Source: Janibacter alkaliphilus (GTDB lineage: Bacteria > Actinomycetota > Actinomycetes > Actinomycetales > Dermatophilaceae). Taken from it: DNA of 64,000 nt. Where the stretch lies: NCBI RefSeq assembly GCF_013408565.1, contig NZ_JACBZX010000001.1:2108001-2172000 (forward strand). The letters are read 5' to 3'. Shown here piece by piece: positions 20,071 through 23,898 of this stretch. The notes beneath the pieces were generated by a model that had not been told where the DNA came from, searched no databases, and saw only the letters and a list, made by a program, of their open reading frames with translations. Every line of letters starts with the position of its first letter. The first letter of the stretch is position 1. Made by a program: the position numbers and the translations under genes.

Positions 20071-21402
20071 ATGCTCTTCCTCCTCGGCGTGATCCTCATG
20101 GTGCTGGCCATCGGCGCCTCCATCGCGCTGCACGAGATCGGCCACCTCGTCCCGGCCAAGAAGTTCGGGGTGCGGGTGCCGCAGTACATGGTCGGTTTCG
20201 GGCCGACCCTGTGGTCCCGGACGAAGGGGGAGACCGAGTACGGGGTGAAGGCGATCCCGCTCGGCGGCTACATCCGGATGATCGGGATGTACCCGCCGAA
20301 GCCGGGTCAGGAGCCCGGGACGATGCGCACCGCCAGCACCGGTCGGATCAGCCAGCTCGCCGACGAGGCCCGGGCGATGTCCTTCGAGGAGGTCCGGCCC
20401 GGAGACGACGGGCGGATGTTCTACCAGCTGCCGGTGCGCAAGAAGATCATCATCATGCTCGGCGGGCCGATGATGAACCTGGCCATCGCCCTCGCCGTCT
20501 TCACCGGGATCTTCACCCTGCACGGCATCGCGGTCACGACGCCGACGCTCTCCTCGGTGAGCGAGTGCGTGGACTTCACCCGCGCCGACCAGCAGGCCGC
20601 CCAGGAGTGCACCGACGACATGCAGCGCTCGCCGGCCAACGCCGCCGGGCTGCTGCCAGGGGACACCATCACCCGGATCGACGGGCGCGACGTCGAGACC
20701 TGGGAGGAGGTGCGCACCGCGATCCGGGACAACGGCGACGCCCCGCTGGCGATCACCGTCGAGCGGGACGGGCAGCGCCAGCAGCTGACGGCCGAGCCGA
20801 TCGTCCTCGACCTGCCGAAGATCGAGGACGGCCAGTACGTCACCGACGTGCGCGGCGAGTACGTCACCGAGCAGGTCGGCTTCCTCGGCGCCAGCGGCAC
20901 CCGCGAGGTGCAGCAGCAGCCGATCACCGCCGTCCCCGGGCTCTTCGGCGACATGCTCGTCGACACCTTCGACCTGGTGCTGCAGATCCCGGAGAAGATG
21001 GTGGGCATCTGGCACGCCGCCTTCGGCGACGCCGACCGCGACCCGAACGGACCGATGTCCGTCGTCGGGGTCGGCCGGGTGGCCGGCGAGGTCACCAGCT
21101 CGGACGCCTTCGGCACCGGCCAGGAGCGGGCGGTGATGCTGGTCAGCCTCGTCGGCTCGCTGAACCTCATGCTCTTCGCCTTCAACATGCTGCCGCTGCT
21201 GCCGCTGGACGGCGGCCACGTCGCCGGCGCGATCTGGGAGGCGCTCAAGCGGGGCTGGGCGCGGGTGCGCGGGCGCCCCGACCCCGGCCCGGTGGACGTG
21301 GCCAAGGCGCTGCCGCTGGCCTACGGGGTGGCGCTGGTCTTCATCGCCATGACCGTGCTGCTCATCTACGCCGACCTGGTCGCCCCCGTCCAGCTCACCT
21401 AG
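20071..21402 (+). CDS. rip: RIP site-2 metalloprotease (RseP/Rip1)
   Basis: A 443-residue intramembrane zinc protease of family M50. The zinc motif HEIGH is in the first helix (ASIALHEIGHLVPAKK), a PDZ domain spans roughly residues 185-260 with LLPGDTITRIDGRDV, and the third zinc ligand is in NMLPLLPLDGGH near residue 380. It cleaves transmembrane anti-sigma factors and other membrane proteins to relay envelope stress. It starts 2 bases after dxr. Its transcript would run into the palindrome at 21453-21500. Confidence 0.94.
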   Translation: MLFLLGVILMVLAIGASIALHEIGHLVPAKKFGVRVPQYMVGFGPTLWSRTKGETEYGVKAIPLGGYIRMIGMYPPKPGQEPGTMRTASTGRISQLADEARAMSFEEVRPGDDGRMFYQLPVRKKIIIMLGGPMMNLAIALAVFTGIFTLHGIAVTTPTLSSVSECVDFTRADQQAAQECTDDMQRSPANAAGLLPGDTITRIDGRDVETWEEVRTAIRDNGDAPLAITVERDGQRQQLTAEPIVLDLPKIEDGQYVTDVRGEYVTEQVGFLGASGTREVQQQPITAVPGLFGDMLVDTFDLVLQIPEKMVGIWHAAFGDADRDPNGPMSVVGVGRVAGEVTSSDAFGTGQERAVMLVSLVGSLNLMLFAFNMLPLLPLDGGHVAGAIWEALKRGWARVRGRPDPGPVDVAKALPLAYGVALVFIAMTVLLIYADLVAPVQLT

Positions 21403-21452
21403 CCCCAACCCCCTTCCGCCACCCCGCGACGACCGGTCACCCAGAACCGCCG

Positions 21453-21500
21453 GCTACCACGCAGTAAGTGCTGTGATCACGACACTTACTGCGTGGTAGC
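21453..21500. repeat. 48-bp palindrome, copy 1
   Basis: Perfect 18-base arms (GCTACCACGCAGTAAGTG and its complement) flank a 12-base centre containing GTGATCAC. It lies 50 bases after rip and 7 bases after the stop of the convergent AbiEi-like gene. The sequence is identical, loop included, to 22616-22663. It has no U tract, so it is not a standard intrinsic terminator, but it could end transcription from both sides. Confidence 0.9.
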
Positions 21501-21507
21501 CCGCGCT

Positions 21508-22497
21508 CTAGGCGGAGCGGACGACGGGGCGTGGCGTCGCGACGACGCCCGGGCGGGGGCGCCTCGCGGCGATGGCGTGGCTGTCCTCGACCCGGCGAAG
21601 GGTGCCCACCGGGTCCTCCCGCATCCCGGTGGGCGTGATCCCGAGGACGAGCACCCCACGGCGGGTCAGCTCGCCGTCCGACTCGACGGTCTGCACCCAG
21701 TCCCGCCCGGTGGAGTGGAAGAGGTGGGAGTGGACCATGACGGCCATCGCCACCTCGTCGAACCACACGTCGGGCGTGAGCAGCCGCCGACCGCCCTCGT
21801 CGCGCAGCGTGGGGTTGAGCATGGGTTCCGGCAGGATCGACGACGTGGCCACCAGCTCGAGCAGCTGAACCTCGGGCACGGACCAGGCGCCGCTCGCCGC
21901 ATGCTCCAGCGGGCGGAGGAGGCGGGCTGCGTCGCGGGTGCGCAGCCGGCAGATCCATGCGTGCAGTTCCTCGGGCGAGGTGACCCCGCGCTGGACCGCC
22001 TCGATGAGCAGGGCCGAGCGAGCGGCGCTGCCTGGTCGAGCATGTGCCAGGTCGAGCACCGCGCGTGCCGCGGAGGCGTAGCGCAGGGGTCCCACCGAGA
22101 CCACCGCCGGGTCATCGATCGTCGTGCGCCGGAGCGACGCGAAGCCGTGGCCCCGGGACCTGGCCGGGGCCGGGGCCAGCATCTCCAGCGTCGCCAACGG
22201 CGGCAGGATCATCCCGTGGTGCCGCGCAGCCGCGGACCCGGTGAGGTAGGCGCGTCCCCCGCCCCACAGCAGCGCACCGATCTCGCGCTGCCGGTGGGTC
22301 GGCGGGCCACCGGTGACGAGGTAGACGCTGGGCAGCAGGGCCAGCCAGGTGCGTCCGGCACGCCATCGGATCGTCGCCTTGGACACCCCGGAGTCCAGCA
22401 GCTGGCTGCGGGTCACGAGCCCGTCCTGGCGGGCGACGTGCGCGAGGGCTGCCTCGGTGAGACCGCTGGGGCTGGTGGTGTCGGCTGAGCGTGGCAT
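21508..22497 (-). CDS. solo AbiEi-like wHTH protein with a VSR/DUF559-like domain
   Basis: A 329-residue protein. Residues 12-95 resemble the AbiEi antitoxin winged helix-turn-helix (ARQDGLVTRSQLLDSGVSKATIRWR, LPSVYLVTGGPPTHRQREIGALLWGGGRAYLTGSAAARHHG). Residues 220-310 resemble a DUF559/VSR endonuclease-like fold (PDVWFDEVAMAVMVHS, then FHSTGRDW and GVLVLGITPTGM). The usual catalytic ExD pair is replaced by M-x-H, so nuclease activity is doubtful. No toxin partner gene is present. It interrupts the rip-ispG junction and is bracketed by identical 48-bp palindromes, 118 bp before its start and 7 bp after its stop. It may bind those palindromes; that is inference. Confidence 0.78.
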   Translation of the reverse strand: MPRSADTTSPSGLTEAALAHVARQDGLVTRSQLLDSGVSKATIRWRAGRTWLALLPSVYLVTGGPPTHRQREIGALLWGGGRAYLTGSAAARHHGMILPPLATLEMLAPAPARSRGHGFASLRRTTIDDPAVVSVGPLRYASAARAVLDLAHARPGSAARSALLIEAVQRGVTSPEELHAWICRLRTRDAARLLRPLEHAASGAWSVPEVQLLELVATSSILPEPMLNPTLRDEGGRRLLTPDVWFDEVAMAVMVHSHLFHSTGRDWVQTVESDGELTRRGVLVLGITPTGMREDPVGTLRRVEDSHAIAARRPRPGVVATPRPVVRSA

Positions 22498-22615
22498 GCC
22501 GGGATCGTGCGGCAGGGGAGCAGGGCTCCGGGTGCGCGCTCCTCAGGGGGTGGACGCTCCTGCGACGCCTGCTGGGGATGTGGACGACTCCCTGCCTTCG
22601 CCCCCTACCCCGCGC

Positions 22616-22663
22616 GCTACCACGCAGTAAGTGCTGTGATCACGACACTTACTGCGTGGTAGC
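22616..22663. repeat. 48-bp palindrome, copy 2
   Basis: Identical base for base to 21453-21500, in the same orientation. It sits between the divergent AbiEi-like gene and ispG, 63 bases upstream of the ispG -10 box, so it could serve as an operator for either promoter. Together the two copies bracket exactly one gene. Confidence 0.9.
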
Positions 22664-22725
22664 CGGGTGCTGTGCGGGACCGGGGTGGGTTGGGGGAGGC
22701 ACAGGGAGCATCCAGGGTGGGCGCG

Positions 22726-22731
22726 CATAAT
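22726..22731 (+). promoter_or_regulatory. -10 box of a leaderless ispG transcript
   Basis: CATAAT is followed by six bases and the ispG ATG at 22738. No Shine-Dalgarno sequence lies at a useful distance. It gives ispG its own promoter downstream of the inserted gene. Confidence 0.5.
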
Positions 22732-22737
22732 GGGGGC

Positions 22738-23898
<1,161 letters not shown>

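Follow-up and report, generated by a model that had tools for sequence, protein, structure and literature searches.

A gene between two identical palindromes in Janibacter alkaliphilus points to a small REP/RAYT-like element with an unrelated protein

At the junction of rip and ispG in Janibacter alkaliphilus, a single gene for a putative nuclease stands between two copies of one palindrome. The stretch of DNA that we analysed, here called the window, comprises 64,000 nucleotides (positions 2108001-2172000) of a genome of 3,323,277 bp in one contig (G000). Our reading, to which we give a probability of roughly 60%, is that the window holds one palindrome-nuclease gene-palindrome unit of an element family that works like the repetitive extragenic palindromes (REPs) and their REP-associated tyrosine transposases (RAYTs), with an unrelated protein. 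RAYT proteins are Y1 HUH transposases. The sequences compared point to what may be a small mobile element of a kind not yet described. A solitary gene with palindromes of about 46-50 bp to its left and right is seen in this and several other genera, and in several of the same genomes solo palindromes are dispersed, mostly between genes. The arms differ from genome to genome, but inside a genome those of the gene-flanking copies agree with those of the dispersed ones. Further, the unit is found at different sites in different genera, and within one genus it is present or absent at a single site.

The features of the unit and its neighbours are as follows, in window coordinates.

20071..21402, + strand: rip (site-2 protease type), left neighbour of the unit, an open reading frame (ORF)
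21440..21513: 74-nt stretch around palindrome 1, the extent used for modelling
21453..21500: palindrome 1 (48 bp), on the 3' side of the enclosed gene, between the convergent rip and gene
21508..22497, - strand: enclosed gene, 329 aa, an ORF with a predicted AbiEi-type half and a Vsr/EDxHD-like nuclease half
21562..21888, - strand: segment of the enclosed gene, drawn on grounds that include the Vsr residues quoted in the available text of PMC12907096
21895..22482, - strand: segment of the enclosed gene, drawn on grounds that include the PADLOC AbiEi match (E 1.1e-12)
22603..22676: 74-nt stretch around palindrome 2
22616..22663: palindrome 2 (48 bp, identical to palindrome 1), on the 5' side of the gene
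22738..23898, + strand: ispG, right neighbour of the unit, from gene calling

An earlier, sequence-only reading of this DNA had claimed that the two 48-bp palindromes are identical through the centre and enclose exactly one gene. Both claims hold: the copies at 21453-21500 and 22616-22663 match exactly, and the ORF at 21508-22497 on the minus strand is the sole gene called between them. The gene stop is 7 bp from one palindrome and the gene start 118 bp from the other. Outside the 46-bp core, the flanks of the stretch at 21440..21513 follow a looser palindromic consensus. As single strands the two window palindromes fold with z-scores of -8.1 and -6.0, and no terminator-like site (hairpin plus T-tract) is found in 21300-22800, a range that covers them both. 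Rip and ispG lie next to each other without the gene in 15 of 15 congeners, an empty junction of the sort that the earlier reading had suggested looking for in relatives.

Palindromes of this type are numerous in the genome. With as many as 3 mismatches allowed, the window has 4 occurrences of the 18-nt arm, compared with 0.03 expected from shuffles; genome-wide, a 17-nt arm at the same tolerance gives 44 + 45 matches, compared with 1 + 1 for a reversed-pattern control. Each forward arm among these has a partner arm at constant spacing, and the matches resolve to 44 two-armed palindromes: the two that flank the gene and 42 others. The outer 11-nt arms are invariant in all 44, every copy has CTAC at its 5' end and GTAG at its 3' end, and in 19 copies (the two of the window included) the 46-bp core is identical to that of the window copies in either orientation. 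Of the centres, 33 are asymmetric (CTG...CGA or its reverse), 9 symmetric and 2 of other form. According to our gene caller 43 of the 44 are intergenic (27 tandem, 10 convergent, 6 divergent), while one lies within a called ORF. Among 21 oriented tandem copies the asymmetric centre points one way relative to transcription in 13 and the other way in 8, which is no clear bias. A stretch of 712,661 bp that runs over the record start, from 2611417 to 756, is free of the palindrome; under uniform placement such a gap has P 0.00125. Pairs of palindromes within 1.5 kb number 3, against 0.86 expected under uniform placement (P 0.053), and therefore this genome alone is no proof that gene and palindromes belong together. 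The gene gives a single match in the genome, with no further copies, and no homologue of it is among the 297 genes called around the other palindromes. A search of Rfam gave three microRNA models, far below their thresholds.

A few observations on individual copies are added here. At L073:4032-5313 (genome 2438231-2439512) another single gene lies between two palindromes 1236 bp apart; it encodes 335 aa and is unrelated to the AbiEi-like gene by phmmer. At L056:4036-4102 (genome 1353235 onward) a CTGCGTGGTAG half-arm follows 10 bp downstream of a palindrome and may be what is left of a second copy. A viral contig (L039:4475-4490) has an exact 16-mer match to a single arm, probably by chance.

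At no more than 1 mismatch the 17-nt arm is present in none of 116 relatives. The outer arms alone, with up to 3 mismatches, match in 4 of 117 genomes, the own one included, the main other being J. melonis (G052). A scan of named genomes gave 36 stretches, of which 22 are in Marihabitans asiaticum, 7 in J. melonis and 7 are singles elsewhere whose interiors look unrelated. The inner hexamer is TACTGG/TAGTGG in M. asiaticum and J. melonis, and TAAGTG in the own genome. Ten own copies share a neighbouring gene (a match of at least 50% identity among three genes per side of the palindrome) with a copy in J. melonis or M. asiaticum, a count that has no chance baseline; the shared neighbours include the rip side of the unit in J. 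melonis. A covariance model built from 87 copies finds the family in 33 of 186 genomes and 14 of 53 genera, and has no match in the 15 congeners. Copy numbers per genome from this model are rough, since no more than 26 candidates were scored per genome under stricter filters, and a palindrome may count on both strands.

A perfect 41-bp hairpin near ispG, identical in three congeners (L114, L125 and L127, near 540-590), was considered as a second family and rejected, being single-copy in each; it has the look of an ordinary terminator following the GNAT gene. Separately, an M. asiaticum locus contains a weak match to a homologue of the enclosed gene (L105:246-686; nuclease half, E 0.002, 30% over 162 aa), about 5.8 kb from its palindrome.

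Homologues of the gene at E 1e-10 or better occur in 64 of 186 genomes (up to 11 candidates scored per genome), and in 24 of 117 genomes of a wider set of relatives. We compared 47 loci, namely 40 of 91 match rows, mostly the best match per genome, and 7 from other families of the order; strong homologues are over-represented among them because best matches were chosen. At 8 of the 47 (L076, L169, L170, L172, L230, L231, L232 and L237) the covariance model is below E 1e-4 on both sides of the gene. A scan that is independent of sequence, asking for at least 19 of 25 dyad pairs within 450 bp of the gene, finds a palindrome on both sides at 14 loci, on one side at 11 and on neither at 22. Arranged by identity to the window protein, the counts for both, one and none are 11, 7 and 8 of 26 loci at 44% or more, 2, 1 and 6 of 9 at 40-44%, and 1, 3 and 8 of 12 below 40%. 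Beside the gene the scan finds 41 palindromes in 41,466 bp, compared with 4 in 94,784 bp elsewhere in the same loci and 1 in 60,903 bp of congener control loci. The bracketing pairs at L174, L196, L240, L243 and L246 have arms unrelated to those of the window; a GTGATCAC-like centre is common to L240, L243 and L246 and is not found in L196. At L196 (G061) a homologue of about 33% identity lies between near-identical 50-bp palindromes (L196:1195 and L196:2289) with a CGCTCTGGCG-type centre, and pairing may therefore extend past the close family.

Palindromes that flank the gene are also dispersed in the own genome, and likewise in G149, G026, G060, G214 and G217. Our pairing test used the seven genomes with both flanking and dispersed copies (dispersed copies: G000 42, G052 17, G026 6, G060 6, G214 5, G149 4, G217 1); G148 and G022, which have flanking copies only, were left out. 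Flanking and dispersed arms match at 0.945 within the same genome and at 0.733 between genomes, and among the 5040 possible pairings the true one alone reaches 0.945. The best match is the own genome in six of the seven, the other being G214, which scores 0.92 to itself and 0.93 to G052. G148 has 2 matches genome-wide, the best one beside the gene. Over 19 loci, protein distances correlate with palindrome distances (r 0.64, reached in 0 of 200 permutations of a Mantel test that ignores kinship).

The gene is also commoner in genomes that have the palindrome. A homologue of at least 200 bits is present in 18 of 33 palindrome-positive genomes versus 13 of 153 negative ones (Fisher 1.4e-8), and any homologue at E 1e-10 in 19 of 33 versus 45 of 153 (P 0.004); these P values are too small, because the genomes are related. 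Where a genome has at least 10 palindrome matches, a homologue is found in 13 of 16 cases. The agreement of flanking with dispersed copies and the enrichment of the gene in palindrome genomes are both in line with the REP/RAYT-like unit that had been proposed from the sequence.

These results bear on the possibility that the palindromes are generic REP-like 3' hairpins or bidirectional terminators without a cognate protein, associated with the gene by shared ancestry or chance. That would agree with 43 of 44 copies being intergenic, 10 of those convergent, with the lack of a gene homologue beside 42 of the 44, with three palindrome-rich genomes that have no gene at E 1e-10, and with the non-significant number of close pairs (3 vs 0.86). 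However, no T-tract terminator was found at the two window sites and palindromes stand on the 5' side of the gene too. Further, bracketed genes are found at sites, and with arms, that differ from genus to genus, and arms agree within genomes. We consider generic hairpins quite improbable.

Chromosomal sites were compared through the neighbouring genes, and 33 of the 47 loci fall into 15 context clusters, with bracketed loci in 8 of the 15. Homologues thus sit at different sites in other genera, many with adjoining palindromes, as a self-spreading unit would have it. Rip and ispG as neighbours (1.5-kb flanks) are found in the own genome and J. melonis only. In the genus of G067 the members share the gene site, and inheritance there is therefore mainly vertical. 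In the genus of G149 the unit is found in the pabA-pknB junction of 2 of 9 genomes (G148 and G149) and is absent from the other 7, where pabA and pknB are adjacent without it; the flank in G149 reads palindrome-gene-palindrome, and in G148 the unit follows pabA. By the model, the family palindrome is seen at this junction in G148 and G149 only and at none of the 7 unit-free ones. Some of the unit-free junctions, among L288 (G147), L291 (G032) and L295 (G145), contain other hairpins or repeats that are not of this family. Solo palindromes lying 1-3 genes from sites used in other genera were few, judged near chance without a computation, and were not used.

One could also think of a conventional transposon like an insertion sequence, with the palindromes as its ends, the protein as its transposase and the solo palindromes as minimal, non-autonomous versions moved in trans, without any homing-type repair. 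We regard this as unlikely: no target duplication is demonstrated, the own genome has a single gene copy, and the ends are whole palindromes and not terminal inverted repeats.

The protein itself is predicted to combine an AbiEi-type half with a nuclease fold of the Vsr/EDxHD kind, which has an E, D, H, H set. In the model, residues 6-201 have the winged helix-turn-helix and antitoxin fold of AbiEi (S. agalactiae AbiEi 6y8q; Rv2827c 1zel), the second half has a Vsr-like nuclease fold, and the N-terminal part scores to the PADLOC AbiEi models at E 1.1e-12. A sequence search of solved structures found no relative, and NCBIfam gave no match. The best rows from a viral fold library include DUF559 and Vsr-type proteins, among others. 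In an alignment of 61 of 71 homologues (ten, some fragmentary, some longer or redundant, were left out), E209, D243 and H261 are conserved in 61 of 61 and D274 in 54 of 61, and position 256 is H in 53, D in 7 and Q in 1. The Vsr active-site set is E25, D51, H64, H69 and D97 (PMC12907096, available text). From the conserved D the next two positions follow at +13 and +18, equal to D51, H64 and H69 of Vsr, a match of sequence spacing and fold rather than of superposed coordinates. Residues that correspond to the active-site set E, D, H (or D), H, D of an EDxHD/Vsr nuclease are present. An interpretation of the nuclease site as dead, the acidic pair of DUF559 being missing, was rejected once the Vsr residue set was compared. 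Of the initial label "AbiEi/DUF559-like" the AbiEi half is retained; a canonical DUF559 site is not there, and the nuclease half appears to be of Vsr/EDxHD type.

Given such a protein, the gene could be a solo regulator: an AbiEi-like repressor with the palindromes as operators, the dispersed copies as regulon or decoys, and the nuclease fold as a structural relic. One palindrome does lie upstream of the gene start, and the extended inverted repeat through which S. agalactiae AbiEi regulates itself is of comparable length (PMC3985639, available text). However, dispersed copies in tandem settings are mostly nearer a stop than a start (21 of 27, 4 of 6 and 11 of 13 in three genomes), and divergent intergenic space, with 26-29% of the intergenic bases in the same loci, contains 8 of 85 copies. 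The second identical palindrome behind the gene and the retained nuclease residues are also left unexplained, and we find a solo regulator rather unlikely.

Host defence is very improbable. In it the AbiEi-nuclease protein would attack the DNA of phages or plasmids, and the palindromes would serve for regulation or self-marking. AbiEi does come from an abortive-infection system, whose known abiE operon has two cistrons, one of them a toxin gene (PMC3985639, available text), and the N-terminal part does score to the PADLOC models. However, no second gene was called between the palindromes of the own genome, whose neighbours are rip and ispG, and therefore no AbiEii toxin partner is there; no phage match was found, and one distant plasmid match is at E 1e-5. 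Nor does defence predict that palindromes are dispersed.

Returning to the REP/RAYT-like unit, several of our results weigh against it. The own genome is not convincing by itself, as its bracketing alone is not significant and could be chance, and 42 of its 44 palindromes have no homologue beside them. The sequence-only reading had stated that palindromes widespread without a link to this protein family, or the gene at the same place without palindromes, would speak against it, and this is partly what we see: J. melonis has the gene at the same rip-ispG place with one adjoining palindrome only, and at 22 of 47 homologue loci the scan finds none. Palindromes are plentiful in M. asiaticum (G156), G144 and G146, yet none of the three has a homologue at E 1e-10. 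In G213 and G160, outside the pairing test, the gene-side palindromes are unlike the other copy there, and a 400-kb sample of G220, whose unit has another palindrome type, contains just the two bracketing palindromes of that type. The Fisher and Mantel results ignore phylogeny. As to mobility, sites are often shared within genera, and movement is therefore rare; the 7 unit-free pabA-pknB sites are without family palindrome, so that neither scar nor pre-existing target is seen; and no target-site duplication is demonstrated in junctions with and without the unit, compared by eye.

The earlier proposal of a small mobile or self-spreading unit, REP/RAYT-like with a different protein, stands as a description of anatomy and evolution; recognition, cutting, repair, movement and the direction of cause are what we infer. 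The protein, probably as a dimer, would bind the palindrome through its winged-helix part, and the nuclease half would nick or cut it, perhaps in extruded form. Repair would then spread and homogenise the palindromes and occasionally, as a rare event, relocate the whole unit. Solo palindromes may be by-products or non-autonomous copies.

A more specific form of this, which we hold as tentative, is a palindrome-homing element. In it an AbiEi-type winged helix-turn-helix dimer would read the genome-specific 46-bp palindrome, the EDxHD nuclease would cut or nick it, and repair would copy the palindrome, sometimes with the gene, to new sites, so that the copies of a genome are kept alike. Protein and palindrome would re-code together. 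Vsr proteins recognise T:G mismatches (PMC12907096, available text), and the asymmetric centre would put T.G and C.A mismatches into an extruded hairpin, possibly aiding the nuclease.

If the REP/RAYT-like reading is right, the REP/RAYT lifestyle, with one gene kept by the host and a cloud of palindromes, would have re-arisen from an unrelated protein, in a unit assembled from an antitoxin-type DNA reader and a repair-type nuclease. The family would also offer natural protein-palindrome pairs for following how a DNA reader changes along with its dispersed sites, and could account for species-specific extragenic palindromes in actinobacterial genomes without RAYT. We know of no system that pairs dispersed palindromes with an AbiEi-Vsr-type protein. 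The open-access PMC literature searched, to which subscription papers and preprints mostly do not belong, has in its available text no report of dispersed palindromes paired with such a protein.

Among known systems the closest in logic is REP/RAYT. There, too, a single gene lies between two palindromic repeats that are also scattered and mostly extragenic, and protein and repeat diverge together (PMC2817692, PMC3733652, available text); in Stenotrophomonas RAYT genes are flanked by two REPs, and the REP and RAYT trees have the same topology (PMC2817692). In contrast, the protein here is of AbiEi type with a Vsr/EDxHD nuclease and not a Y1 HUH transposase, the palindromes are 46-50 bp long, and GTAG is at the end of the repeat and not its 5' head. 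A search for Y1/RAYT (PF01797) at E 1e-3 gave 0 matches in the own genome and was positive in 5 of 14 control genomes, in agreement with the initial claim of a protein different from RAYT. The unit works like REP/RAYT but is not a member, as no Y1 transposase was found in the genome and GTAG is at the other end.

From EDxHD (Vsr-like) homing endonucleases such as I-Bth0305I the unit differs by its AbiEi-like DNA-binding part, by a gene that stands free between palindromes, and by the dispersal of these palindromes. With the AbiEi antitoxins of type IV toxin-antitoxin systems the protein shares the predicted fold of residues 6-201, and the inverted repeat bound by S. agalactiae AbiEi, which extends as 23-N3-23 and serves autoregulation (PMC3985639, available text), is of similar length; the gene here is alone and has a nuclease domain, whereas 6y8q, judged from its length of 195 residues, has none. 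The homologue P0072 (DUF559/Vsr-like with AbiEi_4), which carries PF04480 and PF13338, has the same two-domain order, with a profile comparison probability of 100%. It differs at the second acidic position, which is M-V-H here and not E-V-D, and the set here is therefore of the Vsr-type D...H....H form. By its protein the unit would be a new kind, while by logic alone it would fall among REP-type elements.
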